Below are positions 5,344-27,899 of a DNA stretch of 64,000 nt, in pieces (within the stretch, counting starts at the first letter, position 1; each line of letters begins with the position of its first letter). A model generated the notes under the pieces. The model was not told the DNA's origin. It searched no databases and worked only from the letters and a program-made list of their open reading frames with translations. Made by a program: the position numbers and the translations under genes. Source of the DNA: Methanocalculus chunghsingensis (lineage in GTDB: Archaea; Halobacteriota; Methanomicrobia; Methanomicrobiales; Methanocorpusculaceae); NCBI RefSeq assembly GCF_018132105.1, contig NZ_JWHL01000003.1, positions 1 through 64,000 on the forward strand, written 5' to 3'.

Positions 5344-5875
5344 GAACCTTATTGATGCATATCAGCGGCAGGTATCGCTCCCCTGGGAAGAGATGCTTTC
5401 GGAACAGGAGAAGATCTGGTTCTGTGTCTATGAGCCCCCCTATGAGCGGCGAATAGAGGCACGCCTCGAAGAGTTCAGGATCAAGACTCTTGAATCAGGC
5501 CATTTATGGAGGCATATCAATATTGCAGGGGCATTTGAATCATGGCTGATCGAAAACGAGTATCATGAAGAGTACTTCAGAGTCCCCTCCGATCTCGAAT
5601 ATGATCTTTTGGATTTCATCAGGCACCTCGTTCTTCTTTTGAGGAAGGAGATAGAAGAGACGGATGCGAATACCATTGTTGCAGTCACCGGGATCGGATC
5701 CCTCTACGGGATCGTCCGTGCCAGTGCAGTCATCGATCAGGCGGTCAAAGAGACCCCGATACCAGGGAGGCTGGTATTCTTCTTCCCAGGAGATCGTGAT
5801 GCGAGAAACTACCGTCTCTTAAAAGCCCGGGATGGGTGGAATTATCTTGCGACGCCCATTGAAGCAGAGGAGTGA
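5330..5875 (+). CDS. brxB: BrxB, DUF1788 BREX protein
   Basis: A 181-residue protein with the DUF1788 hallmarks: an N-terminal helical half with WEEML and the YEPPYE segment, and a C-terminal half where IVAVTGIGSLYGIVRAS is followed by RLVFFFPG and a conserved ARDGWNYLATPI ending. BrxB is an essential core protein of type I BREX with no assigned enzyme activity. The C-terminal part has an alpha/beta look. ATG 5330 or ATG 5336 could be the start; both overlap brxA. The stop overlaps the GTG of brxC in a GTGA junction, so translation of the two is probably coupled. Confidence 0.88.
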   Translation: MGMIENLIDAYQRQVSLPWEEMLSEQEKIWFCVYEPPYERRIEARLEEFRIKTLESGHLWRHINIAGAFESWLIENEYHEEYFRVPSDLEYDLLDFIRHLVLLLRKEIEETDANTIVAVTGIGSLYGIVRASAVIDQAVKETPIPGRLVFFFPGDRDARNYRLLKARDGWNYLATPIEAEE

Positions 5876-12626: not shown

Positions 12627-12639
12627 CTATATCACCGTG

Positions 12640-14289
12640 ATGACAATGAGCGATAACCAGTACACAGATCCGCAAGGAAAACCTGGAACGTTTACCAATA
12701 GGGTAAGGCGTACATTTCTCGAGCTTGATGAAAAACATCCAAAGCAGTTCTGGTTTCTATTCTACGCTCTTATATTCTTCATTGCCGCTATTCTAGGAGC
12801 AGGCTTTGGACTCCTATTTCCGTACAAAGCAATCGATGTCAATAGTGCCAGATACATTCTGAGCGCACTTATTCAAAGCCAGGCTGCTGTGATCTCAATT
12901 GTAATATCATTGACATTGATTGCAGTACAATTGACAGCACAAATATATTCACCCCGTATCACTGAATTTTTCAAGAGTCATATCAATATGTGGTGCTTCT
13001 TGGCTAGTTATATTATATCGATAGCATTTAGCTCGTTTTTACTGATACTTCTTGTAGGGACCGATCTCACTAATAGTGCAACTGTAAGGATACTCCTCTA
13101 CTTTTCCCTATTTCTCGCAATTTTTTTGTTTTTTGCTCTAATACCATATATTTACATCACCATGAACCTACTAAATGCCGACACTGTTATTAAACGGCTT
13201 ACAGCTGCTATCCAAATACCTGATAGTCTTGATCCTGAACATGATCCGTTTCAGCCAGTATTTGATGTTATTTATGGTGCAATTAAGCGTTTTGACTTTA
13301 TTGCTATGAGTAATGGATTCACACAAATAGTAAATAACTATGAAAAAATTGTAATGGATAATCGAAAACACGCCCAACTAGAATATATTAATTCTAGATT
13401 TTTTGATGATTTTAAGCGATGTGGTGTTTTACTCATTGAAATACGAGAAGAGAAATTTGTATTTGAGGTTGTCCATAAGCTCTCTCTCATCATCAATTGG
13501 AGTGTTAAAAATGAATTAAAATCATCATTTCATTGGTGTATCATAACTTTATGCGAAATTGGTGTTAAATCCGCAGAAAATGGAATGCGTTCCCCTTTAA
13601 ATGAGACTATAACCTCAATAGATGAAATTATTCAAGACATAGAGCTTGAAGTCGGTCCAAACGATCTGAATATCAACTCTAAGATCTACCAATTGATAAA
13701 GTGTCAGGAGAAGCTAGGAATCACCGCAGTATCGAACAATATTGAGGATTCTGCAAAAAAAGCGGTTGATTCGATTCAAAGCAATATTGAAAGAATTATA
13801 GAATTTAATACAAACAATAATTATGACATCTTTTTGGATTTTTATTTAACCATAGGGAAGGACGCACTAGAGAAGCACTCCGCTCTTGTTATGATTGAAG
13901 TATTGGATTCAATTGAAAAAACTTATAACATAGCCATTACGCATAAAAATATAAAGCTAGCGGATGATTGTCTCCGAACACTCAAATCTCTCGGGCTCAT
14001 CGCTGGAAAACTTGGATTGAAAAAACAAATTAGCAATATTTTAAACAGTATTTTTCATATTACTGTTAAAGCTCGCGATAAGAAACTGGACCAACTTTAT
14101 CGGACAGGTCTTGAACAATTAGCAGAAATACGACTAACGTATCCAGATATCTTTGATAAACACCAATGGCCAGACTATAGGTTTGATGGTATTTCAGATT
14201 TTTATGTAGAAAGGAATTTTGACATAGAAGAAGAAGTCATAATTTTGGATCATCAAATAATTGATGATTGGATAAAAAAAAAGAGATGA
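12640..14289 (+). CDS. DUF2254-type membrane protein inserted in the BREX operon
   Basis: Start chosen at ATG 12640 (or 12646), 13 bases after the pglX stop; the open frame extends further back but only as an overlap of pglX. The product is about 549 residues. Four membrane helices lie in the first 190 residues, and the second is followed by a VISLTLIAVQLTAQIYSPRIT segment (given in parts: SLTLIAVQL, then SPRI) that matches the DUF2254 pattern of an SLTLVALQL helix plus an SPR turn. The remainder is a long soluble helical domain facing the cytoplasm by the positive-inside rule. The gene is very AT-rich, unlike the flanking BREX genes, and lies exactly between two copies of the pglX 3' end, so it arrived by recombination. 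DUF2254 has no settled function; a membrane effector role is a guess. Confidence 0.65.
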   Translation: MTMSDNQYTDPQGKPGTFTNRVRRTFLELDEKHPKQFWFLFYALIFFIAAILGAGFGLLFPYKAIDVNSARYILSALIQSQAAVISIVISLTLIAVQLTAQIYSPRITEFFKSHINMWCFLASYIISIAFSSFLLILLVGTDLTNSATVRILLYFSLFLAIFLFFALIPYIYITMNLLNADTVIKRLTAAIQIPDSLDPEHDPFQPVFDVIYGAIKRFDFIAMSNGFTQIVNNYEKIVMDNRKHAQLEYINSRFFDDFKRCGVLLIEIREEKFVFEVVHKLSLIINWSVKNELKSSFHWCIITLCEIGVKSAENGMRSPLNETITSIDEIIQDIELEVGPNDLNINSKIYQLIKCQEKLGITAVSNNIEDSAKKAVDSIQSNIERIIEFNTNNNYDIFLDFYLTIGKDALEKHSALVMIEVLDSIEKTYNIAITHKNIKLADDCLRTLKSLGLIAGKLGLKKQISNILNSIFHITVKARDKKLDQLYRTGLEQLAEIRLTYPDIFDKHQWPDYRFDGISDFYVERNFDIEEEVIILDHQIIDDWIKKKR

Positions 14290-14322
14290 TTATATCAATC
14301 ACTTAAGGAAAATGGAGATTAT

Positions 14323-14760
14323 ATGATCCAAAAAGTCTTAGAATCTGTCGCATTGGTTAGACAGAAAACAATTAGATGCCATAAATTTGAAGATATCAAC
14401 CCCTTCGTTGCTGCCACCCCCGGTTCAGAAGAGCGGCTTGTTGCCGCCCTTGACCTGAAAACACGGCTTAAGAAGATACTTGAGGGTGAAGACCCCTATG
14501 ATATTTTTATCAGGTGGAAACCCCTGCATGAGCAACCGATCGGATGGGACCCGGATCTTAATGATGGCATCCGGTTGAATATCCGGCCATTTGTTGAGGC
14601 GGGGGTGCTTCGATCCACCCCGAAGATCCACTGGAGGACAGACCGTGGCAAAGATCCGGTGCCGAATGCATCCGGGACGGTGGAGCGGCATAACGACCGG
14701 CACTTCAAAATCGATGAAAAGAAGCAGGCACGGGAAAGAGCGAAAGGAGAAGAGAAATGA
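14323..14760 (+). pseudogene. pglX: Displaced 3' fragment of pglX
   Basis: From about 14422 the frame encodes the last about 110 residues of a PglX, near-identical in protein to the C-terminus of the upstream pglX but ending in KKQARERAKGEEK. The first about 33 codons of the open frame (from ATG 14323) have no PglX similarity and are AT-rich. No methyltransferase domain is present. The stop overlaps the ATG of the following ATPase gene as ATGA, which is how the other BREX genes are joined, so this is probably the original operon's pglX end, cut off when the DUF2254 gene and a second pglX end came in. It may still be translated and couple ribosomes to the downstream genes. Confidence 0.8.
14422..14730 (+). 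repeat. Direct repeat copy 2: 3' end of pglX
   Basis: Gap-free partner of 12297-12605. The left edge near 14415-14422 is sharp: upstream AT-rich sequence switches to GC-rich PglX coding sequence. Together with copy 1 it brackets the DUF2254 gene. Confidence 0.9.
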
Positions 14761-15854
14761 GGAAACTGGATACGATCCATATTTCGGGTTTTAAATCGAT
14801 AAAGAACCTGGATGTCACCTTACACGATCTCAATGTCATGATCGGTGCAAATGGTGCCGGAAAGACCAATTTTATCTCCATCTTCCGGCTCCTGAACGAG
14901 ATGGTTGAGGGGAGGCTCCAGTTCGCAGTGGCAAAAGCAGGAGGGGTCCGCTCACTCCTGCATTATGGTCCAAAGACCACAAAGAAGATCGAGGTCAATC
15001 TCCGTTTCGGAAAGAATGGATACTCCTGCATCTGGGATAGTGCAGGGGATGAAGGTCTTATCTTCCAACGAGAAGAAACAGAGTTCTATGGTCATGGACC
15101 GGATGCAACCCCGTACTATGATCTGGTTGAAACAGGTCATCGGGAGACAAAGCTGAATAATTATGCAAAATTACCTGGTCACCAGGTATCGCGTTTTGTT
15201 CTTGAGAGCCTGAAGAGTTGGCGGGTCTATCATTTTCATGATACCAGCAATGAATCCCCGATAAAAGCGATAGAACAGATCAATGACAATATGTACTTCA
15301 GGTACAATGCATCGAATCTTGCTCCATTTCTCTACTACCTACAAAAAATCCATGAAAAAAACTATAATGATATAAGAGATATGGTTCGGCTTGCCGCACC
15401 GTTCTTCGATGATTTTATCCTCAGACCACTCCCAGAGAACAATGACCTGATAAAGCTTGAATGGAAGGAGAAAAACTCAGACTACCCATTCCTTGCCCAC
15501 CACCTTTCAGACGGGACACTCCGGTTCATCTGCCTTGCAACACTCCTCCTCCAGCCGGATCTCCCGGAGTTAATCCTCATTGACGAGCCGGAACTTGGCC
15601 TGCATCCGTATGCCCTGAATATCGTTGCAGACCTGATCATGAGTGCATCAAAACGCTCACAGATCATCCTCTCAACACAGTCTGTCAGTCTGATCAACCA
15701 GTTTGAACCTGAAGATATCCTTGTCGTTGACCGCCATGATGGAGAGACGACGATCAAACGGCTTGTTCCAGAAGATCTCGAAGACTGGCTCTCTGACTAC
15801 TCTCTTGGCGAGCTCTGGGAGATGAACATCCTCGGCGGAAAACCCCAGCGGTGA
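14757..15854 (+). CDS. ABC-class ATPase (AAA_21 type) paired with DUF4276, copy 1
   Basis: 365 residues. Begins with the SMC/RecF-like signature GFKSIKNLDV followed by Walker A GANGAGKT at residues 30-37. The ABC signature region is LSDGTLRFI near residue 246. Walker B is LILIDEPELGLHP, with D276-E277. A switch-histidine-like region reads STQSVSLINQF, and the C-terminus ends WLSDYSLGELWEMN. This is the COG4637-like single-gene ATPase typically followed by DUF4276. It overlaps the pglX fragment by ATGA and precedes the DUF4276 gene by 4 bases. Together the two genes split the ATPase and TOPRIM parts that OLD proteins hold in one chain, as in the PARIS system. Its place between pglX and pglZ suggests co-expression with BREX. 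A close paralogue lies at 24943. Confidence 0.8.
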   Translation: MRKLDTIHISGFKSIKNLDVTLHDLNVMIGANGAGKTNFISIFRLLNEMVEGRLQFAVAKAGGVRSLLHYGPKTTKKIEVNLRFGKNGYSCIWDSAGDEGLIFQREETEFYGHGPDATPYYDLVETGHRETKLNNYAKLPGHQVSRFVLESLKSWRVYHFHDTSNESPIKAIEQINDNMYFRYNASNLAPFLYYLQKIHEKNYNDIRDMVRLAAPFFDDFILRPLPENNDLIKLEWKEKNSDYPFLAHHLSDGTLRFICLATLLLQPDLPELILIDEPELGLHPYALNIVADLIMSASKRSQIILSTQSVSLINQFEPEDILVVDRHDGETTIKRLVPEDLEDWLSDYSLGELWEMNILGGKPQR

Positions 15855-15858
15855 TTGC

Positions 15859-16533
15859 ATGATCAGGTTAAAGATCATCTGTGAAGGTCAGACCGAAGAA
15901 AGTTTTATCAAAGAAGTAGTAACGCTCTATCTCAAAAAGTTCCAGATTGAGGTCATAGCGATCATCCTCCCCACATCGATCAGAGAGAGGACATATCGCG
16001 GAGGAATTGGACCCTATTCTCGTGTAAGAAAAGATATTCTCCGATCTTTTGAGAGGGATGGGGCCTATGTCACAACCATGTTTGACCTCTATAAATTGCA
16101 TCATTCATTTCCCGGGAAGGGTGAGTCAGAAAAAATTTCGGATATCTATGAACGTGTCAGGGTGATTGAAGAGGCACTTATGGCGGATATTAACAACCGC
16201 TTCTTCATCCCCTATATCCAGCTCCATGAGTTTGAAGCTCTCCTATTCTCAGACATCTCTACCATTGATGAACTATTGATACCCAGCTCTCAATCCAAGA
16301 TCCCAGAGTTAGAAACCATTATCCGAAACCATCCAAATGGTCCGGAATCGATTAATGATGGTGAAGAGACAGCCCCATCAAAAAGGCTTCTGAAATTGTA
16401 CCCCTCATACAAGAAGAGAACACGAGGCATTCAGATTGCAATGAGAATACCTCTTGAAATTATGCGGGAACAGTGCCCGCACTTTGATGCCTGGCTCATG
16501 AAAATTGAGCAGCTCTCCGGAGACAGAGCATGA
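15859..16533 (+). CDS. DUF4276 protein (TOPRIM-like), copy 1
   Basis: 224 residues. The N-terminal strand and turn LKIICEGQTEE (EGQTE at residues 9-13) is a TOPRIM-type acidic motif. A second acidic site follows in TTMFDLYKL, then the family signature FIPYIQLHEFEALLFSD, an INDGEETAPSKR segment and a CPHFDAWL ending. This is the complete DUF4276 pattern. TOPRIM nucleases use such acidic residues to bind Mg2+, so a nuclease or RNase effector released by the ATPase is a reasonable inference but is unproven. The stop overlaps the pglZ ATG, which puts the gene inside the BREX transcription unit. The paralogue at 26093 keeps all these motifs. Confidence 0.8.
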   Translation: MIRLKIICEGQTEESFIKEVVTLYLKKFQIEVIAIILPTSIRERTYRGGIGPYSRVRKDILRSFERDGAYVTTMFDLYKLHHSFPGKGESEKISDIYERVRVIEEALMADINNRFFIPYIQLHEFEALLFSDISTIDELLIPSSQSKIPELETIIRNHPNGPESINDGEETAPSKRLLKLYPSYKKRTRGIQIAMRIPLEIMREQCPHFDAWLMKIEQLSGDRA

Positions 16534-18827
16534 AAACCACATTCCTTGAAACAGTTCACAACGCCCTGAAGAACGCGACAACTGAGTATAATCGCAACGA
16601 TGCCGCACCCCCCGTTGCCCTGCTCTGGACAGATCCCACAGAGGAGTGGCGACCAGTCGTTTCGCTCTTAAAGAAGACATTTCAGATGCCGATCATGACG
16701 CTTGGCTCTTATGATCCGGACTCATGGCAGGGTCCCGCCATCTATCTCAGGTGTCTCCTTGAAGAAACAATCCCAGACACTACATTCCCAAAAGGTGACT
16801 GTCCTATCATCTACCTTCCGGGGTATTCGCGAGATGCATTTAGGAATAGCCGGGACTGTCCGGATATGATCAAGCCACTCATTGAGCTCCAGTACCGTGG
16901 CTTGCTCTGGTCGCACAAGAACGGGAGGGACTGGACGATTGCAGGCTTTCTTCAGGCAAACTATAGTATCGAAACACAGCCGGATCAGGCGACAAAAGAT
17001 GCACTCAGAAGCTCGATAGAGAAACTCTGCCAGGAGACGATACAGACACTCAGATCAAACCAGCCACTCAAAGCCGGTTTCTTCACCAGCCTCACTCATC
17101 CTGATGAAAAGAAACAGATACTTCTCTGGATGAATGCTCCTGAAGAGGAGCGGGGAAAGATGTCGCAAGGTGATTGGACATCCTTCCGTTTTATCTGTAA
17201 AAGTGATTATAAATTTGATCCCCAGATCGATGGCGTGGCAACCGCAGCTGAGAAACTCGCATCCCAGGAGGAGAGGAGATGGCAACAAATATGGGAGCGT
17301 TTTATCGAGACGCCTGAGAGGTTTCCTGATATACCTAATCTTCTTAGAAACCTTGTCCGACCTTCATTTATCGTCTTTAAGGATTCGTGGCCCCAGATCA
17401 ATGATGAAGAGGAAAAGAAACTTCATACTGACCTCCTCGCACTTGAGCAGGTATCTGCAAGGGAAGCTGCTGAAACAATTCAAAGGCTTGAAAAAGCCCA
17501 TGCCGAACGGCGGAGCTGGGTCTGGGCAGCAGTAGGGGAGAGTCCCCTTGCGATGGCATTACAACCATTGAACGAACTTGCAGAGCTTTCTGCACATTAT
17601 ACCTTTGGCGGAACGTTGGATGAGCAGGCGAGACGCTATACCGAGACGCTCTATATGGCAGACAATGCCATCCTGCGTAGTCTTGAGTATGCAACCGATG
17701 CCGATACAACGAAAGCAGTAACCACTGCTATCAGAGCAGTTGCTCTCAACTGGCTCTCTGCACGTGCAGAGGAGTTCCAGAAAGCATGGTGCTCATCTCC
17801 GCCCGAGCAGATGAAACAAACAAGTCCTCCCGTTGTGGGAGAGGTGCTCCTCTTTGTTGATGGCCTTCGTATGGACTGCGGTCACCGGCTCAAAAAAATC
17901 CTCGGGGATGCAGGGGAGGAATGCAGCCTTTCATACAGGTATTCGGTGCTCCCGACCCTGACCGAGACGGCAAAGCCCGCTGTGATGCCCATAGCCGGAG
18001 AGCTTGCATCAGGAGAAGGGCTTACCCCATGCACGCAGAGCGGTGCTGCAGCAGAGATCCAGGCACTCAGACGGCTCCTTGAGGCACATTCGTATCAGGT
18101 CCTGAAAGAAGGAGAGTATGGTGATCCTGCAGGTTCGGCATGGACCGAGATCGGCAACATCGATCATAGCGGCCATGACAGAGGGATCGCCCTTGCCTCA
18201 ACCCTTGATCACGAACTCTCGCTCATCGGGAATCGGGTACACTCTCTCCTTCAGTCAGGATGGTCACAGGTTCGGATCGTCACCGATCACGGCTGGGTCC
18301 TTATCCCTGGAGGCCTGCAGAAGACTGATCTCCCCCCGGCTTATACAGTTGTCAAAAAGGGGAGATGTGCCCGACTCCATCCGGATGTTCAGGTCTCCTA
18401 TCCTGTGCTTCCGTGGTTCTGGGATCGGAACGTTCGGATCGCCCTTGCTCCTGGTATCACCTGTTTTGAAGCTGGAAAGGAATTTGATCATGGGGGATTG
18501 AGCCCTGAAGAGGCCGTTGTTCCCGAGATCATTGTCAGGAGGGGTGGGGGTGTTCAGTCTGTGATAGAGGTCGAACCTCCGGTTTGGAGAGGTTTGCGCC
18601 TCTCGGTAGATACGAGTGGTGCAGAAGGATCTCGAATTGATATCCGTGAGAAACCCGGAGATCCGGCAACCAGTCTCTTAGAGGCGAGCAAGACGATCCC
18701 CGCAGATGGAAAGGTATCGCTGGTCATACCGGATGATCGTTTCGAAGGAACAGAAGCGTTCATCGTAATTCTGGATGATAATGGCAATCCATCTGCCCAG
18801 AGAAAGGTGATTATTGGAGGAGAATGA
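16530..18827 (+). CDS. pglZ: PglZ, BREX alkaline-phosphatase-superfamily protein
   Basis: 765 residues, slightly shorter than the usual about 850. The C-terminal half carries the phosphatase-fold metal motifs: VDGLRMD with D444, TDHGW at 585-589, and FDHGGLSPEE with D653-H654. The N-terminal half is a helical BREX-specific region. PglZ is a core BREX protein; metal-dependent nuclease or phosphodiesterase activity has been reported for family members. It overlaps DUF4276 upstream by ATGA, and its own stop lies 4 bases before the chosen brxL start, with the brxL ribosome site inside pglZ. Confidence 0.9.
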   Translation: MKTTFLETVHNALKNATTEYNRNDAAPPVALLWTDPTEEWRPVVSLLKKTFQMPIMTLGSYDPDSWQGPAIYLRCLLEETIPDTTFPKGDCPIIYLPGYSRDAFRNSRDCPDMIKPLIELQYRGLLWSHKNGRDWTIAGFLQANYSIETQPDQATKDALRSSIEKLCQETIQTLRSNQPLKAGFFTSLTHPDEKKQILLWMNAPEEERGKMSQGDWTSFRFICKSDYKFDPQIDGVATAAEKLASQEERRWQQIWERFIETPERFPDIPNLLRNLVRPSFIVFKDSWPQINDEEEKKLHTDLLALEQVSAREAAETIQRLEKAHAERRSWVWAAVGESPLAMALQPLNELAELSAHYTFGGTLDEQARRYTETLYMADNAILRSLEYATDADTTKAVTTAIRAVALNWLSARAEEFQKAWCSSPPEQMKQTSPPVVGEVLLFVDGLRMDCGHRLKKILGDAGEECSLSYRYSVLPTLTETAKPAVMPIAGELASGEGLTPCTQSGAAAEIQALRRLLEAHSYQVLKEGEYGDPAGSAWTEIGNIDHSGHDRGIALASTLDHELSLIGNRVHSLLQSGWSQVRIVTDHGWVLIPGGLQKTDLPPAYTVVKKGRCARLHPDVQVSYPVLPWFWDRNVRIALAPGITCFEAGKEFDHGGLSPEEAVVPEIIVRRGGGVQSVIEVEPPVWRGLRLSVDTSGAEGSRIDIREKPGDPATSLLEASKTIPADGKVSLVIPDDRFEGTEAFIVILDDNGNPSAQRKVIIGGE

Positions 18828-18831
18828 GAAT

Positions 18832-20868
18832 ATGCCAGCATTGGATCAACTCGATCAGCTCGTCACAAAAGCTTTTGACGGCTATGTCGTCCGGAAGGAT
18901 CTCGCACAGAAGTTCAAAGGTAACTATGCGGTTCCAACCTATGTAGCCGAGTTTCTCATCGGCAAATACTGTGCCACCACCGATGAAGAGGAGATTAAGG
19001 AAGGGCTTGAGATCGTACAGCGCCAGTTAAGCGAGCGGATTGTCAGGGCAGGGGAGCAGGAACTCTATAAGGCTAATGCGAAGGTGCACGGAACCGTCAA
19101 GGTGATCGATCTTATCACGGCACGTCTGGATGTAAAGAGCGATACTTTTCTGGCGACTATCCCCTCTCTTCTCTTAAATGATGTCCATATCTCTTCTGAT
19201 CTTGTCTATGAACATGAGCGAATGCTGACGGGTGGGTTCTATGCAGAGGTAGAAATTGCGTATGGCGACCCGGAGAGCAACCGTCCGTTCTCCCTCGAAC
19301 GCCTCCGTCCAATCCAGCTCTCAAAACGCGGTGTTCTTCAGGATGTTGCACGTGGCCGTGAAGAGATGACGACACAGGAGTGGAAGGACTTTCTTATCCG
19401 GAGTGTTGGCATTGAGCCATCCTCACTCTCAGCTCGTGCACAGGATGTCCTCTTCCTCCGAATGGTTCCCTTCGTCGAGAAAGGGTACAATATGATAGAG
19501 CTTGGCCCGAGGGGTACCGGGAAAAGTTACCTCTATCAGCAGATCAGTCCTTACTCACACCTGGTATCCGGAGGGAAAGCAACGGTTGCCAAGATGTTTG
19601 TGAATAACGCAAACGGGCAGAGAGGCCTTGTCTGCCAGTATGATGTCGTCTGTTTTGATGAAGTATCCGGGATCAGCTTCGACCAGAAAGACGGCGTCAA
19701 TATTATGAAGGGATACATGGAGAGCGGCGAGTTCTCACGAGGCAGAGAGAGTATCCGGGCTGAAGGCGGCATCGTCATGCTCGGCAACTTCGATGTCGAT
19801 GTTGAGCATCAGCAGAGGATCGGCCATCTCTTTGGTCCCATGCCAAAGGAGATCCGTGACGATACGGCATTTATGGATAGAATCCATTCCTATGTTCCGG
19901 GATGGGACTATCCGAAGATCCACCCTGACATGATGACAGAGCATTACGGATTGGTCAGTGACTTTCTGAGTGAAGCCTGGCGACAGCTCAGGGGTGAAAG
20001 CCGCCTCCATCTCATCAATGATCGGATCTTCTTCGGGGATGCACTCAGTGGTCGTGATCGGCGTGCGGTGAATAAGACGGTGAATGGTCTTCTCAAGATT
20101 CTTTACCCCTCTTCAGAGATGGAGATTGAAGATGATCAACTTGAATGGGTTGTCAGGATTGCACTTGAATGCCGCCGGAGAGTAAAGGAACAGCAGAAAC
20201 GGATCGGATCAGCAGAGTTTCGGAATACGATGTTCAGTTACCGGCTCGGAATTGATGGAATCGAGCAGTATGTCTCGACCCCCGAGCTCCATAGTGACAG
20301 CGAGATATCGCCGGATCCCCTCCCTCCGGGACAGGTCTGGGCTATTGGACCGGGTGAAGCAAATGAAGGGAGTGGCCTTTATAAGATTGAAGTGACTGTC
20401 ACACCAGGTTCCTCCATCCGGCTTGTGAATGTCCGTGCACCATATGGTCTGAAAGAGAGTCTCCGTGCAGCAGAGCAGGTGCTCTACACGCAGAACAAAC
20501 TGCTGATAGGGGATCGTGATCCCCATGGAAATGAATATTCCGTACAGGTCAGAGCGCTGAGTGCTGCAAAGGGAGCATCCTCAATAGGAATACCAATTCT
20601 CCTTGCCCTTTCATCAGCAGCACTGGGACGTAGTCTCAAAGGAGGAGTGGTGATAGCCGGGACGATGAGTGTTGGTGGAACCATTGAACCCGTCTATAAT
20701 GGACTTGATATGGCAGAGATGGCAGCAGATAATGGTGCATCAGCCATATTACTACCGGTATCAAGCAGGAAACAACTGAATGATATGTCCGATGATCTCG
20801 CTTCAAGACTGATGGTGATCTATTACAAAGATGCCCGGGATGCTCTCTACAAAGTGCTTGGAGATTGA
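18832..20868 (+). CDS. brxL: BrxL, AAA+ protein with Lon-like C-terminal domain
   Basis: ATG 18832 is chosen because a GGAGG lies at 18816-18820; an in-frame TTG at 18814 is less likely. 678 residues. Walker A GPRGTGKS is at 225-232 and Walker B CFDEVSG at about 274-280. A Lon-protease-like C-terminal domain contains KGASSIG (580-586), then a VGGTIEPVYNG segment where Lon proteases have their catalytic lysine; I see asparagine there, so proteolysis is doubtful. BrxL forms ring complexes on DNA and is required for exclusion but not methylation. It is the last gene of the BREX operon, and its presence with PglX, PglZ and BrxA-C makes this a type I system. Confidence 0.9.
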   Translation: MPALDQLDQLVTKAFDGYVVRKDLAQKFKGNYAVPTYVAEFLIGKYCATTDEEEIKEGLEIVQRQLSERIVRAGEQELYKANAKVHGTVKVIDLITARLDVKSDTFLATIPSLLLNDVHISSDLVYEHERMLTGGFYAEVEIAYGDPESNRPFSLERLRPIQLSKRGVLQDVARGREEMTTQEWKDFLIRSVGIEPSSLSARAQDVLFLRMVPFVEKGYNMIELGPRGTGKSYLYQQISPYSHLVSGGKATVAKMFVNNANGQRGLVCQYDVVCFDEVSGISFDQKDGVNIMKGYMESGEFSRGRESIRAEGGIVMLGNFDVDVEHQQRIGHLFGPMPKEIRDDTAFMDRIHSYVPGWDYPKIHPDMMTEHYGLVSDFLSEAWRQLRGESRLHLINDRIFFGDALSGRDRRAVNKTVNGLLKILYPSSEMEIEDDQLEWVVRIALECRRRVKEQQKRIGSAEFRNTMFSYRLGIDGIEQYVSTPELHSDSEISPDPLPPGQVWAIGPGEANEGSGLYKIEVTVTPGSSIRLVNVRAPYGLKESLRAAEQVLYTQNKLLIGDRDPHGNEYSVQVRALSAAKGASSIGIPILLALSSAALGRSLKGGVVIAGTMSVGGTIEPVYNGLDMAEMAADNGASAILLPVSSRKQLNDMSDDLASRLMVIYYKDARDALYKVLGD

Positions 20869-20944
20869 AAACAAGTGACCGGTGAGTAGGTCAACACATT
20901 ATTATCCTGCAACCTTTATCCTCTCCCCCCTCGAACTCCCCTTC

Positions 20945-21382
20945 ATGACGTACTGGTTCGCCTCCTCCAACCGTGACAACTGGGAGATCATCCGGCAGAA
21001 GAACATCTGGGGCATCCCGAAGCGGAACAAATCGATCATCGATCGGGTGACGCCCGGCGACGCCATCCTCATTTATGTCGCCCAGCAGAAGGATGGCGAT
21101 GAGATCCTCCCATCTGCCGTCGCCGGTGCATTCGAGGTCGTATCGGATGGATATGAGGATTCGGCGCCGCTCTTCATAACCCCGGAGCGGATGGGGGATG
21201 AGGTCTTTCCATATAGGATGAAGCTGAAGCCGATCAAGGTCTTCAAGGAGCCGGTTGCGTTCAAGCCGCTCATCCCGGCACTCTCCTTTATCAAGAACAA
21301 GACGATGTGGACCGGTCACATCCGGGTGGCGATGCGGGAGATCCCGGAGGAGGATTATCGGCTGATCCTCAGCAAGGGGTGA
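20945..21382 (+). CDS. EVE-domain protein (PUA-like fold)
   Basis: Start at ATG 20945; the frame is open from GTG 20882 but the upstream residues are not family-like. 145 residues covering a single EVE domain: YWFASSNRDNWE at the start, WGIPKRN, then TPGDAILIYV and a hydrophobic core ending WTGHIRVAMREI. EVE domains bind modified bases in DNA or RNA and are often fused to or placed near restriction enzymes. Its place just after brxL suggests a role in sensing modified DNA, but no nuclease is fused to it here. The DUF365 gene follows after 7 bases. Confidence 0.85.
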   Translation: MTYWFASSNRDNWEIIRQKNIWGIPKRNKSIIDRVTPGDAILIYVAQQKDGDEILPSAVAGAFEVVSDGYEDSAPLFITPERMGDEVFPYRMKLKPIKVFKEPVAFKPLIPALSFIKNKTMWTGHIRVAMREIPEEDYRLILSKG

Positions 21383-21389
21383 AGATAGC

Positions 21390-21854
21390 ATGACGACACC
21401 TCTACCAGTCACCGGCGTCACCTTCCCCGTCCCAAAACAGTACATGCACCGCTTCTTCAAAGAAGGTAAAACCGTCTTTGTCAAACCGACGACCGTCTTC
21501 AAGGAGCTGCGGCGGGGGATGCGGCTCGTCTTCTACCAGTCGCACGAAGATACCGGGTATGTGGGAGAGGCGACGATCAGGCGGATACTGATCGCAGCAG
21601 ATCCCCTCACCTTCTATGACACCTATGGCGATGCCGTCTTCCTCACACGGGATGAGATGATCGCATATCTCGGGAACCAGGAGCGGTGGAAGGCCGTCCG
21701 GGTCAGGAAGGGGAAGGAGAATGAGAATGGGAGTGAGAATAAGAGCCGGAAGCGGGACTGGATGGCACTTGAACTTGAGGATATCCGGGCGTATGGGGCG
21801 GTGCAGAAGCCGGAGCGGTTTGTACCGGTTGGTGGGCAGTATCTAAGGGATTGA
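21390..21854 (+). CDS. DUF365 family protein, copy 1
   Basis: 154 residues. Matches the archaeal DUF365 pattern: TFPVPKQYMHRFF, VFVKPTTVFKELR, GMRLVFYQSHEDTG, then GEATIRRI and a C-terminal basic stretch with MALELEDIRAYG. The predicted fold is ASCH/PUA-like, so nucleic-acid or modified-base binding is plausible; no enzyme motif is visible. A near-identical paralogue is at 24339, differing mainly in the N-terminus and in a short asparagine/glutamate-rich insertion here. It lies 54 bases upstream of the TBP relic, mirroring the DUF365-to-TBP association of the second cassette. Confidence 0.75.
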   Translation: MTTPLPVTGVTFPVPKQYMHRFFKEGKTVFVKPTTVFKELRRGMRLVFYQSHEDTGYVGEATIRRILIAADPLTFYDTYGDAVFLTRDEMIAYLGNQERWKAVRVRKGKENENGSENKSRKRDWMALELEDIRAYGAVQKPERFVPVGGQYLRD

Positions 21855-21908: not shown

Positions 21909-21990
21909 ATGAAGATCATGAATATCGTCTGCCCCGGCGACCCCCAATAGTTCCTCCCCTTTCAGCGGATGGAGGAAAATCCCTTCCCTC
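21909..21990 (+). pseudogene. Relic of a TATA-binding protein gene
   Basis: The sequence from ATG 21909 aligns base for base with the start of the intact TBP at 26804 (MKIxNIVCxGD) for about 75 bp. An in-frame TAG stands at 21948-21950, after which the similarity resumes (PFQRMEE versus PFQRLEE) and then fades. The remaining about 430 bp of the gene are absent. The stretch 21990-22143 holds nothing else recognised. The relic implies a second copy of the TBP-bearing cassette once stood here. Confidence 0.75.
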
Positions 21991-22143: not shown

Positions 22144-23169
22144 TCAGATCTCATCCTCCAGCAGTTTTGCAATCTCTTCAGGCCCCGGCAGCTGGCCTTG
22201 AAGCTCAGAGGGGAGCTCACTTACAATCCTGTATGTAGCAACTCCGATAGGTGTTGTGGAAGACTGAAGGGCATATTCAACTACAGTACGGTTCTTCTCC
22301 TTACACAGAATAATGCCTATGGAAGCATGTTCATTGTTCTCACGTACCTGCTGGTCAAGAGCCGTCAGATAAAACTGCATCTTACCTACAAATTCTGGCT
22401 GAAACTCACCGACTTTAAGTTCGACTGCAACAAGACAACAAAGCCTGCGGTGAAAGAGAAGAAGGTCAATAAAATACTCCTTATCACCCACTTCAAGCCT
22501 GAACTGGCTGCCTAAAAAGGCAAAGACCCCGCCCATTGCACGAAGAAAATCTTCAATCCGGTTTATCAGTGCTCGTTCAAGTTCCCTTTCGGAATGTTCC
22601 TCTCCAAGTTCAAGAAAATCAAAAATGTATTCGTCTCTTAAAGCCAGTTTTGCCTGTGCCCTTATCTCCGGCGTAAGCTCCGTATCAAAATTATTCTGAC
22701 CGGAAAGCATCTTCTCATATGAATGGTTCTCTATCTGGTGAATCAAAACGTTCTTTGACCAGCCAAATTTCCGGGTCATTCGAATATAGAATTCACGTTG
22801 CAGAGGATCTTTGCAGCGTGACATTATAACGATATTATGACTCCAGCTAATTTCTCCAACCAATGGCTGGATTTTTTCACTCGTGCAATACTCCAGGTAA
22901 AACTGGCGCATATACCATAGATTCTGAACTGAGAAGCCTTTTATACCCGGAAATTCGCGTTTTAGATCATCTGATAGTTGTTGGACTACAGATTTCCCAT
23001 AGCCCTGTTCAATCTGTCTGCTGGCAATAATACTGCCAATATCCTAGTAAAGGCCGACAAGCTCTTTGTTAACGGCACGAAGTGCTGTATACTGTGCTTC
23101 TCTTAACCGGTCTTTTACCTTTGAAAGTAAGACATTGTATCCTTCCGGAAGGCCGGATGTATCCATCAT
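22144..23169 (-). pseudogene. YhcG/DUF1016 PDDEXK nuclease interrupted by an in-frame amber codon
   Basis: Reading from ATG at 23169 the frame encodes a full-length DUF1016 protein (341 codons) except for one TAG at 23046-23044, in the motif LVGLY-stop-DIGS where the family has tryptophan (LYWxIG). A single G-to-A change of TGG would make it. The C-terminal domain is intact, with the PDDEXK core FIDLLLFHRR then VAVELKVGEF. The 255-residue open frame 22144-22911 is the part downstream of the stop that retains an ATG. YhcG-type nucleases occur in defence islands and near type I restriction systems. The gene is more AT-rich than its paralogue at 23429. Readthrough or pyrrolysine use is possible in principle, but no Pyl genes are seen here. 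Confidence 0.8.
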
Positions 23170-23236
23170 AATTCTCCCTATCTGATATTTCAGAGAAGAT
23201 ATACCCTGCTATTTGCTACAAGATAAATCCCCTCAG

Positions 23237-23347
23237 CTCATCATTATTGATGATCCTGAGCCTGGATCCCATCATCCACACTCCAAGGTAGTGGCATACC
23301 TGATCGGTGGTACACCACACCGTGAGTCAGATCGTGGAGTCTTTTGA
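23237..23347 (+). pseudogene. Relic of the AAA_21 ATPase gene (Walker B region)
   Basis: The frame from 23237 reads LIIIDDPEPGSHHPH and then VVAYLIGGTPHRESD before TGA 23345. The intact ATPase at 24943 reads LIIIDEPELGLHPSA and then VLAALIGSASHRTHV in the same region, so about 36 codons align without gaps, with the Walker B glutamate now aspartate. No other part of the ATPase is seen nearby. It is the second trace, with the TBP relic at 21909, of a decayed cassette. Confidence 0.65.
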
Positions 23348-23428
23348 ATAATCTCTCCATATACTCCTCTCCTCATGCAGATCCTCTTAAGATCGTTACC
23401 TTACCCGGTACAGACGCCCCCTCCCCAT

Positions 23429-24345
23429 TCAGCCCTCTCTCCGCCCCAGCTCCTCTTCCAGTTCATCCACCGTCGGCAGTCTCCCCCGCAAATCCTCGGG
23501 AAGGTGAGTTGTCAGTTCATATCCGGCGACGCCAATCGGCTTCTCCATATCCCTGAGGGCATACTCAGCAATGATGCGGTTCTGTGACTTGCAGAGGATG
23601 ATCCCAATGCTTGGGCTATCATCAGGGTGGCGGAGGAGATCATCAACCGCTGAGAGGTAGAAGTTCATCTTCCCGGCATACTCCGGGATGAACTCTCCAA
23701 TTTTCAATTCGATCACCACGTATGACCGAAGTTTGAGATGGTAGAAGAGGAGATCAATAGAGAATTCTCTCCCTCCAATAGAGAGCCTGTACTGATTCCC
23801 GATGAACGCAAAACCTACCCCGAGCTCCAGAAGGAAATCGCGGATATGTTCGATCAACGCCCGCTCCAGCTCCCTCTCGGCTGCATCCTCCCCGATCCCG
23901 AGGAAATCAAAGATATAGGGATCTTTGAGTACCGATCGTGCAAGATCTGACTGAGGTGCAGGAAGTGCTGATGAAAAGTTCGTCACCGCCCGCCCCTCGC
24001 GTCTGATAAGCCCACTCTCGATCTGATGCACGAGAACGTTCCTTGACCACCCGTTCGCAATTGTTCTCTGGATATACCACTCCCTCGCTGCCCGTTCAGA
24101 TATTTTGTCAAGGATTACGCAATTATGAAACCAGGGTATTTGTGCAGCAGCCCGCTGCACAAATTCAGGATCGGGCCATGCCCCTGCAAACGAGCGCATA
24201 TACTTCAGGTTTCGGGGAGAGAAACCCCGTACCTCCGGAAACTCCTTTCTGAGATCGTCTGAGAGCCGGTTGATCACCTTTGATCCATACACGTTCTCCT
24301 CGTTCACCACACAATAGCCTTTAAGACCATCGATACCAATGGATC
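23429..24345 (-). pseudogene. YhcG/DUF1016 PDDEXK nuclease, 5'-truncated copy
   Basis: Homology to DUF1016 starts near residue GYCVVNEENVYGSKVINRL and continues to the end, with the PDDEXK core FSIDLLFYHLK then VVIELKIGEF intact. The N-terminal helical segment that should precede it, including the LYWxIG motif present in the neighbouring copy, is missing. In its place the frame runs into the antisense strand of the DUF365 gene at 24339. So the 5' end was replaced at a junction near 24345-24375. An ATG at 24351 could still start a shortened protein of about 307 residues, so a partial nuclease may be made. Composition is GC-rich, unlike the copy at 22144. Confidence 0.7.
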
Positions 24346-24794
24346 GATTCATGGAGAGCGAAGAAACGACCATCACCGGCGTCACCTTCCCCGTCCCAAA
24401 ACAGTACATGCACCGCTTCTTCAAAGAAGGTAAAACCATCTTCGTCAAACCGGCGACCGTCTTTAAGGAGCTGCGGCGGGGGATGCGGCTCGTCTTCTAC
24501 CAGTCGCATGAAGATACCGGATATGCGGGAGAGGCGACGATCAGGCGGATACTGATCGCACAAGATCCCCTCACCTTCTTTGACACCTATGGCGATGCCG
24601 TCTTCCTCACACGGGATGAGATGATCGCATATCTCGGGAACCAGGAGCGGTGGAAGGCCGTCCGGGTCCGGAAGGGGAATGAGAGCCGGAAGCGGGACTG
24701 GATGGCACTTGAGCTTGAGGATATCCGGGCGTATGGGGCGGTGCAGAAGCCGGAGCGGTTTGTGCCGGTCGGAGGACGATATTTAAGGGAATAA
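24339..24794 (+). CDS. DUF365 family protein, copy 2
   Basis: 151 residues, nearly identical to the copy at 21390 from TGVTFPVPKQYMHRFF onward, but its first about 12 residues (MDRFMESEETTI) are encoded by sequence that, on the other strand, belongs to the truncated DUF1016 gene. The real start may therefore have been lost and replaced by a chance ATG at 24339 or 24351. It lies 148 bases upstream of the second ATPase/DUF4276 pair and reads in the same direction. An ASCH/PUA-like nucleic-acid-binding role is inferred only from the fold family. Confidence 0.7.
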   Translation: MDRFMESEETTITGVTFPVPKQYMHRFFKEGKTIFVKPATVFKELRRGMRLVFYQSHEDTGYAGEATIRRILIAQDPLTFFDTYGDAVFLTRDEMIAYLGNQERWKAVRVRKGNESRKRDWMALELEDIRAYGAVQKPERFVPVGGRYLRE

Positions 24795-24942
24795 TGCCAA
24801 CTATCTTCAATTGCCATGAAGGTGTAAAACGTTCATCTGCTGCCTTCCCTACATTCCGGGCAGGGAAGCACCCGCTAAGAGATGCAGCAAAGAGATGGAT
24901 GAACAAGATGCATGAAAGAGATGCAGCAGAAGGAGAGGAGAG

Positions 24943-26088
24943 ATGGAGAACCTGTACAGCATCAGAATTCAGGGGTACAAATCAATTCGGGATCTCACAC
25001 TTGACATCAGGGCGATTACCATCCTGATTGGAGCAAACAGCTCCGGCAAGAGCAATATCCTGAGCATCTTCAAACTACTCAATGCAATCGCCAAAGGAAG
25101 GCTCAAACTAGCCATGAGCAGGGGCGGTGGCGCATCCTCAACACTTCACTATGGACAGAAGCGAACAGGTGAGATGGCCATAGAAGTCAAACTTGGACCT
25201 CACCAGTATCAGTGTGTCCTTGCTCCTGCACAAGATGGGCATCTCATCTTCACTGAAGAAAGACCGGGGATTCATCTGGATCTTCAGCCGTCATTTGTCA
25301 GGGATCAGGGGACCTCTGCTGGCGTTGAGGGGAAAGGCCGATCAAACTGGCATCGTTCAATTGATGCAGGCGGCAATTGGGAGAGTTCCCTCTCAAAACT
25401 GGCAGAAAAGGGAGATCCTGCATCAAGGCAGATCCTCAGGACCTTCAATGATCTCCGGGTATATCATTTCCAGGATACATCAGATACTGCTGATGTGAAA
25501 GGGATACAGCAGATCAATGATAACCTCTACCTCCGGGAGGATGGAGGAAACCTGGCCCCTTTTCTCTATGCACTTTCCCATACACACCCCGATCATTATA
25601 CGAGAATTGTTGAGACAATACAGCTTGTTATCCCGGGTTTCGATGACTTTACCCTTCGCCCAATGGTGGAAAATACCAATATGATGCGACTTGAATGGAG
25701 AGAGATCGACTCGGATTACCTATTTCTTGCGCATCAGCTATCGGATGGAACCCTCAGATTCATCTGCCTTGCAACTCTTCTCCTCCAACCGGATCCACCT
25801 GATCTGATCATCATTGATGAGCCGGAACTTGGTCTCCATCCATCTGCCATCCAGGTTCTGGCAGCACTGATCGGGAGTGCATCACATCGGACACACGTGA
25901 TTGTAGCAACACAATCAGCGATGCTTGTTGATCTTTTTGAACCAGAGGATGTTGTTGTTGTCGATCGGCTGCAAGGAGAAACAACCGCAAGAAGACTCAA
26001 TCAAGAAGAACTGGAGTCATGGCTCTCAGAGTATTCACTGAGCGAGCTCTGGGAGATGAACATCCTTGGCGGCAAACCCGTCTGGTGA
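24943..26088 (+). CDS. ABC-class ATPase (AAA_21 type) paired with DUF4276, copy 2
   Basis: 381 residues, clearly paralogous to 14757. RIQGYKSIRDL leads into Walker A GANSSGKS at residues 30-37. LSDGTLRFICLATLLLQP is shared almost exactly with copy 1, and Walker B is LIIIDEPELGLHP with D292-E293. The C-terminus WLSEYSLSELWEMN is also shared. A good ribosome site (GGAGAGGAG) precedes ATG 24943. The main divergence is in residues about 80-150, likely the part that contacts partner or trigger. DUF4276 follows 4 bases after the stop. Unlike copy 1 it is outside BREX and is followed by a TBP gene. Confidence 0.8.
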   Translation: MENLYSIRIQGYKSIRDLTLDIRAITILIGANSSGKSNILSIFKLLNAIAKGRLKLAMSRGGGASSTLHYGQKRTGEMAIEVKLGPHQYQCVLAPAQDGHLIFTEERPGIHLDLQPSFVRDQGTSAGVEGKGRSNWHRSIDAGGNWESSLSKLAEKGDPASRQILRTFNDLRVYHFQDTSDTADVKGIQQINDNLYLREDGGNLAPFLYALSHTHPDHYTRIVETIQLVIPGFDDFTLRPMVENTNMMRLEWREIDSDYLFLAHQLSDGTLRFICLATLLLQPDPPDLIIIDEPELGLHPSAIQVLAALIGSASHRTHVIVATQSAMLVDLFEPEDVVVVDRLQGETTARRLNQEELESWLSEYSLSELWEMNILGGKPVW

Positions 26089-26092
26089 TTTG

Positions 26093-26770
26093 ATGATAAG
26101 GCTGAAGATCATAACCGAGGGTCAGACCGAAGAGTCTTTTGTACGATCCCTCCTTGCTCCTCATCTTGCAGGACATCAGATCATTGCAATTCCAATTACC
26201 ATACCAACAGCAGTTGGAAAGAGGACTCACCGTGGAGGAATTGGAAGCTACACTCGTATGAGAAGATTAATTCTCGGATCTTTTGAACGGACTGGAGCAT
26301 ATATCACCACGATGATTGATCTGTACAAACTACCAGAGTCATTTCCGGGCATGCAGGAGGCTGCACCTATCACCGATCCTTATCAGCGGATTCAGTTGCT
26401 TGAGGAGGCTCTGCGTCTGGATATTGACAATCGTTTTTTCCTCCCTTATATCCAGCTTCATGAATTTGAAACACTCCTCTTCTCTGATATTGAGGGTATT
26501 GATGCGCATATGAGAGTCTACACCCGCTCCCGGCTCCGTGATCTCAGAAATATTCTGAGAGACTATCCTGGCGGACCCGAATATATTAACGATGGGGAGA
26601 TGACTGCCCCCTCAAAACGACTTTTAAAAGTCTATCCCTCCTACCGAAAAGTGCTCGATGGTAGTCAGATTGCAAAACGAATCAGCCTTGGTCCCATGCG
26701 GGAGAAGTGCCCGCATTTTAATTCCTGGATCTCCGGACTTGAAGAGCTCTCCAGAAGGGAACCTATCTGA
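26093..26770 (+). CDS. DUF4276 protein (TOPRIM-like), copy 2
   Basis: Start ATG 26093, 4 bases after the ATPase stop; 225 residues. Shows the same motifs as copy 1: LKIITEGQTEESF at the N-terminus, TTMIDLYKLPESFPG, FLPYIQLHEFETLLFSD, INDGEMTAPSKR and CPHFNSWI. All probable acidic metal ligands are kept, so this copy should be as active as the first. The TBP gene follows after 33 bases on the same strand. The probable role is the effector half of an ATPase-gated defence pair; this is inference from the OLD and PARIS analogues. Confidence 0.8.
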   Translation: MIRLKIITEGQTEESFVRSLLAPHLAGHQIIAIPITIPTAVGKRTHRGGIGSYTRMRRLILGSFERTGAYITTMIDLYKLPESFPGMQEAAPITDPYQRIQLLEEALRLDIDNRFFLPYIQLHEFETLLFSDIEGIDAHMRVYTRSRLRDLRNILRDYPGGPEYINDGEMTAPSKRLLKVYPSYRKVLDGSQIAKRISLGPMREKCPHFNSWISGLEELSRREPI

Positions 26771-26803
26771 GGAAGAAGCACCAACACTCTCCCCAGACCT
26801 CCG

Positions 26804-27319
26804 ATGAAGATCATCAATATCGTCTGCTCCGGGGACCTCCGTCAGGCCATCCCGTTCCAGCGGCTGGAGGAGCTCCCATCCGCATCATACCGCTATGACC
26901 CCGAACAGTACCATGGGGCGTATATCCTCATCTCCACCGGCAAAGTCACCCTGTATAAAAGCGGGAAGTATATCATCTACGGCCTCAAATCCCTCGATCA
27001 GATCGACGGAGCCTACCAGGAGTTCCTCGCCATCATCTCCCCGATCATCGACCCTGCAGCCGCCTCGCCGCCGAAGGTCCAGAATATCGTCGGGATGGAG
27101 GACTTCGGGATGGCGATCAACCTCTCCCGGTTCGTCATCGCCGAGGGGATGGAACGGGTCGAGTACGAACCCGAGCAGTTCCCGGGCGTCGTCTACCGGG
27201 GGGAGACGGGGACCGCCCTCCTCTTCTCATCAGGGAAGGTGATCTTCCCGGGATTCAAAGATCCGGAGACGATGGAGGCGTTTGCGGCAGAGCTGAAGGA
27301 GAGGACGAGCAGGATATGA
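26804..27319 (+). CDS. Divergent TATA-box-binding protein in the defence cassette
   Basis: 171 residues with the two direct repeats of TBP. Repeat 1 starts KIINIVCSGDL and repeat 2 QNIVGMEDFGMAINL, followed by the typical YEPEQFPGVVYR and SGKVIFPGFKD segments. Repeat 1 is degenerate (YHGAYILISTGK in place of FPGLVYR), so it is not an ordinary housekeeping TBP. In archaea TBP recruits RNA polymerase with TFB; paralogues can select promoters. Here it follows the ATPase/DUF4276 pair by 33 bases and is not near basal transcription genes, so a dedicated role in the cassette is likely. A relic of a second copy is at 21909. Confidence 0.85.
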   Translation: MKIINIVCSGDLRQAIPFQRLEELPSASYRYDPEQYHGAYILISTGKVTLYKSGKYIIYGLKSLDQIDGAYQEFLAIISPIIDPAAASPPKVQNIVGMEDFGMAINLSRFVIAEGMERVEYEPEQFPGVVYRGETGTALLFSSGKVIFPGFKDPETMEAFAAELKERTSRI

Positions 27320-27572: not shown

Positions 27573-27899
27573 TTATAGGATGCTATTGATTTTATCTTCT
27601 AAATCTGGTATCTCATGCGTAAGAATATTCCAGACTATTCTCCAGTCTATATCAAAATAGGCATGAATCATCTTATCACGTGAACCTGCGATCAGTTTCC
27701 ATGGAATGTCAGGATGTTCATCTTTCAACTCTTGGGAGAGATTCTTTGTTGCTTCTCCAATTATCTCGATAGAACGGATAATAGCACGTTGACGAATTTG
27801 ATCGTCTATTAGCTTATCATACGTTAACCCCTTACCAGCTAACCTGAGAAAAGCAATCTCCTCCAGGATATGTCCGAGGAATAGATCATCACGCTTCAC
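27573..27899 (-). CDS. hepT: HEPN-domain toxin of the HepT/DUF86 family
   Basis: Start taken at GTG 27899 (VKRDDLFLGHIL), which overlaps the MNT gene by 11 bases; an ATG at 27920 lies further inside that gene. About 108 residues, all helical. The HEPN active-site motif R-x4-H-x-Y is present as RDKMIHAY near residue 80. HepT-type toxins are RNases kept inactive by AMP addition or binding by the partner nucleotidyltransferase. The pair is complete and in the usual order (MNT then HEPN). Confidence 0.88.
   Translation of the reverse strand: MKRDDLFLGHILEEIAFLRLAGKGLTYDKLIDDQIRQRAIIRSIEIIGEATKNLSQELKDEHPDIPWKLIAGSRDKMIHAYFDIDWRIVWNILTHEIPDLEDKINSIL

Follow-up and report, generated by a model that had tools for sequence, protein, structure and literature searches.

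The divergent TATA-binding protein (TBP) encoded at 26804..27319 (+) in the 64,000-nucleotide stretch of Methanocalculus chunghsingensis DNA analysed here (the window) belongs to a euryarchaeal lineage of TBPs that accompany defence systems based on DNA modification. That this TBP clade is associated with restriction-modification (R-M) and BREX systems is almost certain. Ancestrally, the TBP was partnered with the DUF365 protein, and not with the ATPase/DUF4276 pair that now lies between the two genes in the window.

Results

The 171-aa TBP, which is of the TBPx/TbpC type, matched PF00352 with 102 bits, above the Pfam cut-off and over two repeats, and its AF2 model (pLDDT 92.4) gave TM scores of 0.89-0.91 against several DNA-bound TBPs, so that the two repeats and the saddle fold of a TBP are both present. 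Alignments revealed a departure from the canonical set of four intercalating phenylalanines: the N-terminal pair is Tyr36/Tyr51, while the C-terminal pair, Phe126/Phe141, is kept. The protein also carries the TFB stirrup EYEPEQFPG, a predicted TFB contact. Judged by its sequence, it is a TBP variant and not a standard TBP. It is not the housekeeping TBP, since two further TBPs are encoded in the genome, one intact (contig C24) and one with an in-frame TAG (contig C15). The genome contains a single TFB gene, which rules out a dedicated TFB partner for TBPx. The possibility that the TBP is a virus gene was discarded, because a scan of virus contigs gave no relative.

The TBP gene starts 33 bp after an ATPase/DUF4276 pair (24943-26770) that PADLOC labels HEC-01, a label that does not include the TBP. 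In this pair, a HEC-01A ATPase (24943..26088, +; HEC-01A 443 bits, AAA_21 102 bits) adjoins HEC-01B, a DUF4276 TOPRIM-like protein (26093..26770, +; HEC-01B 254 bits, PF14103 169 bits), whose gene, to judge from the sequence, probably starts at ATG 26093 rather than at TTG 26066. Upstream of the pair lies DUF365b (24339..24794, +; PF04033, 111 bits), a small PUA/ASCH-like protein with an AF2 model closest to AF2351 (2kku), ASCH domains and the McrB N-domain. All four genes were found at the place and on the strand given in the original prediction, in the Pfam families named there and well above cut-off, and the 33 bp gap was exact. The open reading frame of a YhcG/DUF1016 PD-(D/E)XK nuclease identified with Pfam (23429..24448, -), divergent from DUF365b, overlaps the latter, and its true start is probably near 24353. 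The genome has two DUF365 genes, both inside the window and about 90-96% identical in DNA. The other copy, DUF365a (21390..21854, +; PF04033), is located directly 3' of BrxL and of an EVE-domain protein belonging to a modified-base reader family (20882..21382, +; PF01878, 88 bits). Between both DUF365 units, a second, truncated YhcG copy (22144..22911, -) was recognised by Pfam and sequence comparison.

The interpretation of the locus was changed by a complete BREX operon at 4423..20868 (+), absent from the earlier entry and identified here with Pfam, PADLOC and a profile map. Its composition is that of type 1, with brxA (4423), brxB (5330), brxC (5872), pglX (9345), pglZ (16530) and brxL (18814) in one operon, together with a DUF2254 gene (12466), all on the + strand. 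BrxL reached 936 bits in PADLOC; BrxA and PglZ scored under their Pfam cut-offs but have the right position and resemble their relatives. A second HEC-01-type pair (14757-16533, +) is located inside this operon, without an adjoining TBP.

Sequence comparison uncovered the relic of a TBP gene start at 21911..21976 (+), about 60 bp past DUF365a (64% amino acid identity over 25 residues, 78-81% in DNA), which is common to the sister genomes G012 and G014, as well as remnants of HEC-01A, from its Walker B region, and of the beginning of HEC-01B at about 23201..23358 (+). Such relics had been taken as a sign that TBP and ATPase became linked to DUF365 more than once. The TBP relic does adjoin DUF365a and the ATPase/DUF4276 pieces are real, but the ATPase relic is 1.3-1.5 kb away from DUF365a, beyond a YhcG gene. 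The ancestral unit in the window is BrxL-EVE-DUF365-TBP; after its duplication the first TBP decayed, and HEC-01 became inserted into the second copy, between DUF365 and TBP.

We surveyed gene order in 232 genomes of Methanomicrobiales with about 60 DUF4276 loci. If DUF365, the HEC-01 ATPase/DUF4276 pair and the TBP formed one system, with the TBP redirecting polymerase or serving as the sensor that the ATPase guards, this would agree with the order and spacing in the window and with the same order in the 98%-identical sister G012. Such a system is, however, extremely unlikely, as these two are the only ones of the ~60 DUF4276 loci that this TBP adjoins, HEC-01 was not found between DUF365 and TBP in any other relative, and the HEC-01 pair of the BREX operon has no TBP. 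In G013, another sister, DUF365 abuts the TBP with no intervening HEC-01, and in G016 an ATPase gene is located after the TBP. The survey thus rules out HEC-01 as the core TBP partner; elsewhere in the order, sister G012 apart, HEC-01 occurs without TBP, and the arrangement in the window is a local insertion in a TBP module. The predicted four-gene cassette was consequently abandoned and its guarded sensor found no support, while a TBP that redirects RNA polymerase is possible, towards the BREX or R-M operon. The predicted partnership with DUF365 was borne out: among 14 relatives, 8 have DUF365 as the immediate upstream neighbour of the TBP, and in most relatives about 20 bp separates the two. 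Across Methanomicrobiales, an EVE-(NucS-like nuclease)-DUF365-TBP module, the nuclease of which has an invariant GRID...EYK motif, is attached to BREX or R-M operons.

In a tree of 132 archaeal TBPs, the divergent TBPs of methanogens form a clade (support 100/99), which together with divergent TBPs of haloarchaea makes up a larger clade of 39 members (support 100/100). The second N-terminal position is Tyr in all 39 members, 33 of which are YYFF, whereas 89 of the 93 TBPs outside the clade are FFFF. The C-terminal Phe pair and the stirrup are kept across the clade over large distances, and by sequence its most conserved block is the surface expected to bind TFB (the EPEQFPG stirrup). Public records give several of the haloarchaeal proteins the name 'TATA-box-binding protein C'. 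Haloarchaeal TbpC, according to the available text of Becker et al. (2014, PMC4230888), has likewise lost the N-terminal and kept the C-terminal Phe pair, and the proteins with this combination share a common clade in our own tree. From signature and place, not from the gene name, we infer that the TBP on pNRC100 of Halobacterium NRC-1 is tbpC itself.

R-M, BREX, EVE, DUF365 or NucS genes were located within 5 kb of 41/46 TBPs with an altered pair and of 1/99 Phe-Phe TBPs (p = 2e-29, uncorrected for phylogeny), in agreement with the claim that the presence of a divergent TBP in a defence locus is not due to chance. None of 16 canonical TBPs from the same genomes was near such genes. Since genes adjoining some TBPx loci had served to build the haloarchaeal methylase and helicase profiles, with a risk of circularity, the test was repeated with methanogen-seed profiles only (33/46 altered versus 1/99 Phe-Phe TBPs, p = 7e-21, likewise uncorrected) and on genomes fetched afterwards. 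In these later haloarchaeal genomes, 28 of 30 altered TBPs were associated, one miss lying on a 3-kb contig, as against 1 of 13 Phe-Phe TBPs, an FFHF protein beside two altered ones, and 0 of 12 FFFF TBPs. Genus g38 provides the exceptions, four TBPs with an altered pair (L301, L304, L306 and L309) but no R-M genes by the profiles used.

The partner systems comprise BREX, type I R-M, Eco57I/TaqI-like methylases with an SNF2 helicase, and DUF499-type systems. In methanogens the link to defence runs via EVE and DUF365, and in haloarchaea directly through methylase, helicase or HsdMSR genes. Associated TBPs were found on Halobacterium NRC-1 pNRC100, in Halorubrum lacusprofundi and Halobacterium sp. 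DL1, and beside DUF499 in Halorientalis litorea. As in the window, where the operon is of type 1, several relatives have the TBP inside or beside BREX, and so do Haloarcula halophila (within the operon) and, with BREX-5, Halococcus dombrowskii and Halanaeroarchaeum. At 38 of the 39 loci the TBP gene is co-directional with or divergent from the defence genes, often at ≤50 bp or overlapping; it is head-to-head with the defence operon at 11 loci and on the same strand downstream of the defence genes at 23. Many altered-TBP copies are on plasmids.

Divergent TBPs might be non-functional or selfish genes that accumulate on plasmids and in defence islands while contributing nothing to the systems there. 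Relics and in-frame stops do occur; relics and shortened TBPs are common among methanogens, where the TBP is thus dispensable, and TbpC is described in the available text of PMC4230888 as easily knocked out and without a transcript detected in the laboratory, which also counts against a role as promoter factor. Mere hitchhiking is nevertheless improbable given the tight co-directional spacing, the overlapping starts, the non-convergent orientation at 38/39 loci, the conserved C-terminal Phe pair and stirrup, and an association that persists when the type of partner system changes.

Discussion

We consider the chances about even that TBPx is a dedicated TBP using the host TFB to set the expression of its own defence operon, a proposed role as promoter factor. 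Gene geometry and conserved surfaces would support such a controller of R-M and BREX systems, and the conservation of the TFB-stirrup block across the clade fits a role in transcription. The host's single TFB would be bound by the C-terminal half, in which Phe pair and stirrup are intact; the N-terminal half, altered to Tyr-Tyr, would bend DNA less strongly or change the choice of promoters, and mainly the TBP's own defence operon would be switched on or limited. In methanogens the TBP probably shares a transcript with EVE and DUF365, and the reading of modified bases by these two could, speculatively, couple expression to the methylation of host or invading DNA. No common promoter motif was seen by eye in methanogen intergenic regions. 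Two haloarchaeal methylase-helicase-TBP operons are preceded by the same 20-bp inverted repeat, AGTCTAAGTAAAGACTATAT, and a third by a similar one. The first gene of these operons is small and AbrB-looking; its product is an equally good candidate reader of the repeat as the TBP and could be the real regulator.

The main rival to a promoter factor is a DNA-binding/bending subunit, or loader, of the restriction/BREX effector complex, which would recognise promoter DNA that is bent, mismatched or under active transcription and bring the helicase or nuclease to it. The 23 of 39 TBPs downstream on the same strand are as compatible with a subunit as with a regulator. Moreover, the TBP gene often overlaps or nearly touches a helicase, HsdR, HsdM or methylase gene, the methanogen TBP is co-operonic with EVE, DUF365 (PUA/ASCH-like) and the GRID...EYK nuclease, and bacteria, which do without TBP-based transcription, also have TBPs in defence operons (TOTE, TALON; PMC12458937). 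The clade is, however, most strongly conserved in the presumed TFB-binding surface, for which a pure subunit would have no need, and the pairing of one TBP type with unrelated enzyme systems is better explained by a shared regulator. We regard a subunit role as possible but less likely.

The TBP could also act as a decoy or competitor, occupying the promoters of viruses or plasmids and preventing their transcription in infection, as a separate layer beside R-M/BREX. An altered N-terminal stirrup could give abnormal complexes and many copies are plasmid-borne, but a decoy, which is very unlikely, would not account for the link with modification systems in preference to other kinds of defence.

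In bacteria, C proteins and BrxR are HTH/WYL repressors or activators that control R-M and BREX systems. Like TBPx, they are encoded by small DNA-binding genes in or head-to-head with a defence operon; unlike them, TBPx is a general transcription factor in variant form. As a promoter factor, TBPx would be their archaeal counterpart. The bacterial TOTE and TALON systems likewise have a TBP gene within a defence operon, but they are described with TPR and OB or cold-shock partners and effector genes (PMC12458937), none of which was found beside the annotated archaeal TBPs; TPR and OB partners with an effector were absent from the annotated neighbours in the window and at the other loci.

No account of a link between this TBP clade and R-M/BREX was found in the literature searched, and the text of a BREX survey (PMC12839542) does not contain TBP, TATA or DUF365. 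The multiple TBPs of haloarchaea and methanogens have so far been interpreted as a diversification of global regulation, and TbpC is called possibly non-functional or specialised, with no genomic context given, in the available text of PMC4230888; relative to that account, the family is here extended to methanogens and tied to R-M/BREX. With its members located in R-M, BREX and related operons, the clade acquires a concrete role that can be tested, and since Halobacterium NRC-1 is a genetic model, the question can be addressed directly. The altered N-terminal Phe pair, usually Tyr-Tyr, is a marker for R-M/BREX loci in archaea. With moderate confidence, TBPx/TbpC may be an integral and dedicated component of many archaeal modification-based immune systems that couples transcription initiation to restriction, either as an immunity-specific initiation factor acting with the host TFB or as a marker of invader promoters for the restriction machinery. 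Archaeal immunity gains a candidate class of regulators recruited from the basal transcription apparatus, and a TBP family found almost only in R-M/BREX clusters of methanogens and salt-loving archaea suggests that archaeal defences carry their own promoter-binding factor.

Gene layout and local history

The window, contig C33 of a 2.13-Mb genome of the order Methanomicrobiales, contains the four genes of the original prediction where they had been described: DUF365b (24339-24794), the HEC-01A ATPase, the HEC-01B DUF4276 protein and a TBP (26804-27319, plus strand). An upstream BREX operon of type-1 composition, brxA-brxB-brxC-pglX-(DUF2254)-(HEC-01 pair)-pglZ-brxL, is followed right after brxL by EVE and DUF365a (21390-21854), then by a TBP relic, a truncated YhcG, ATPase/DUF4276 relics and a second YhcG, 3' of which lies DUF365b-HEC-01A-HEC-01B-TBP. 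The TBP relic 3' of DUF365a is common to the sister species G012 and G014. Since an intact TBP directly follows an intact DUF365 in G013, the order in G016 is DUF365-TBP-ATPase, and HEC-01 separates DUF365 from TBP only in the window's genome and G012, the simplest reading has DUF365-TBP as the ancestral pair, beside EVE at the BREX end; the four genes, previously read as one cassette, are a later composite.

The HEC-01 pair within the BREX operon (14757-16533) is likewise placed between pglX and pglZ in the sister G012 and in G197, and lies before pglZ in G014 (loci L109, L126 and L071 for this set). The inserted DUF2254 membrane-protein gene is flanked by two copies of the pglX 3' end (about 12293-12605 and 14417-14729; 313 bp, 91% identical). 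A Gabija-like pair, an OLD-like TOPRIM ATPase and then a UvrD-like helicase, directly precedes brxA (548-4352), and a HepT/MNT toxin-antitoxin pair follows the TBP on the minus strand (27573-28335). The genome's third TBP (L108:8230-8799, contig C15) has a mid-gene in-frame TAG, which may reflect a pseudogene, a sequencing error or readthrough.

TBP relatives and their neighbors

The 232 genomes of the order yielded 14 near-full-length TBP relatives, counting the window's own, and these were aligned (40-98% identity). Their genes are found as BrxL-EVE-NucS-DUF365-TBP and, head-to-head with HsdM/S/R, as EVE-NucS-TBP (both G088). Head-to-head arrangements are also formed by EVE-DUF365-TBP and either a PLD-helicase/type IIG pair (G077) or brxABC (G048, G091), and by EVE-NucS-DUF365-TBP and a UvrD/Cas4 helicase plus N4/N6 methylase (G085). 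Further arrangements are EVE-NucS-TBP next to a helicase and an ATPase (G084), HD-(239 aa)-TBP-pglZ-brxL-EVE-DUF365 (G201) and a TBP between HsdR and HsdS/M (G199). G068, a fragment, has pglZ-brxL-TBP. The NucS partner (304 aa) resembles NucS_C/DUF5655 and carries an invariant GRID...EYK motif. DUF365 is predicted from models to adopt a PUA/ASCH-like fold, with AF2351 as the nearest structure, followed by ASCH domains and the N-domain of McrB. One Methanomicrobiales genus (G212, G217) carries tandem multi-TBP arrays (L302, L303, L304), and for some of its TBPs, which have altered Phe pairs, the profiles used detected no neighboring R-M genes.

A maximum-likelihood tree built from 132 TBPs places the methanogen group (support 100/99) and 24 haloarchaeal TBPs in one clade (100/100), although branches are long and long-branch attraction is possible. 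The N-terminal intercalating pair, canonically Phe-Phe, is Tyr-Tyr in 34/39 clade members and His-Tyr or Phe-Tyr in 5/39, whereas 89 of the 93 TBPs outside have Phe at all four positions (FFFF). This common change lends the clade additional support. The C-terminal Phe pair is retained in 37/39 members. The alignments also show a conserved EYEPEQFPG block, which we take, from TBP-TFIIB structures, to carry the TFB contacts, and the window TBP is modeled as a normal TBP saddle.

Association with R-M and BREX systems

All full-length unique TBPs (n = 145) were selected by TBP sequence, never by context, and 5 kb around each was scored. R-M/BREX genes or genes of the EVE-(NucS-like nuclease)-DUF365-TBP module lay within this distance for 41/46 TBPs with an altered N-terminal pair versus 1/99 with Phe-Phe (p = 2e-29), and for 33/46 versus 1/99 with methanogen-protein-only profiles (p = 7e-21); because TBPs from a single clade are not independent of one another, these p-values exaggerate how many events there were. 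The stronger argument is that the partner system changes within the clade (type I, methylase-helicase, BREX 1, BREX 5, DUF499). One altered TBP scored as a miss (L270) directly follows a PglZ gene according to Pfam. None of 16 canonical TBPs from the same haloarchaeal genomes had an R-M/BREX or module neighbor.

With one divergent TBP (TBPx) as query against 295 haloarchaeal genomes, 40 new stretches were obtained and scored with the existing profiles. R-M/BREX genes were near 28/30 altered TBPs, the two misses being a TBP on a contig of 3 kb and one with the AFFY signature, and near 1/13 Phe-Phe TBPs, an FFHF copy adjoining two altered ones (FFFF, 0/12). At L315, a type IIG-like methylase is surrounded by three TBP genes; in one of them (FFHF) the altered Phe pair is the C-terminal and not the N-terminal one.

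Relative to the nearest defense gene, the TBP at 39 loci is downstream and co-directional (23), head-to-head (11), upstream and co-directional (4) or convergent (1), many gaps being below 50 bp or negative. On two plasmids, pNRC100 of Halobacterium NRC-1 and pHLAC01 of Halorubrum lacusprofundi, the public records show a 4-bp overlap between the start of the TBP gene and the stop of the helicase gene. Genes annotated as TbpC adjoin HsdR in Halobacterium sp. DL1 and DUF1156/DUF499 in Halorientalis litorea and lie within BREX-5 in Halococcus dombrowskii; unlettered TBPs occur in BREX-5 of Halanaeroarchaeum and within a brxC...pglZ-brxL operon of Haloarcula halophila. At three loci, a methylase-helicase-TBPx operon with a small AbrB-looking first gene is preceded by an inverted repeat of 20 bp that leads into a TATA-like stretch (AGTCTAAGTAAAGACTATAT). 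The repeat is the same at L156:1865 and L157:2286, has three mismatches at L174:2684, and is not found in control loci.

Possible role of TBPx

Becker et al. (2014; PMC4230888) describe TbpC as having lost the N-terminal Phe pair, with its role unknown. Surveys of archaeal R-M (PMC10609329), BREX (PMC12839542) and EVE (PMC7641849) do not mention a link between TBP and R-M/BREX, and no paper tying archaeal TBPs to these systems was found among the open-licence literature, so novelty is provisional.

The fold of TBPx is predicted to be that of TBP. Its N-terminal half is altered, its C-terminal half and stirrup are conserved, and it shows dedicated genomic linkage and operon-like coupling. It may serve as a subunit of the defense enzymes, a role compatible with its close coupling to their genes and with the precedent of bacterial TOTE/TALON (PMC12458937). 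The conserved TFB surface favors a role in transcription, in which TBPx would bind TFB and promoters and may regulate the associated defense genes.
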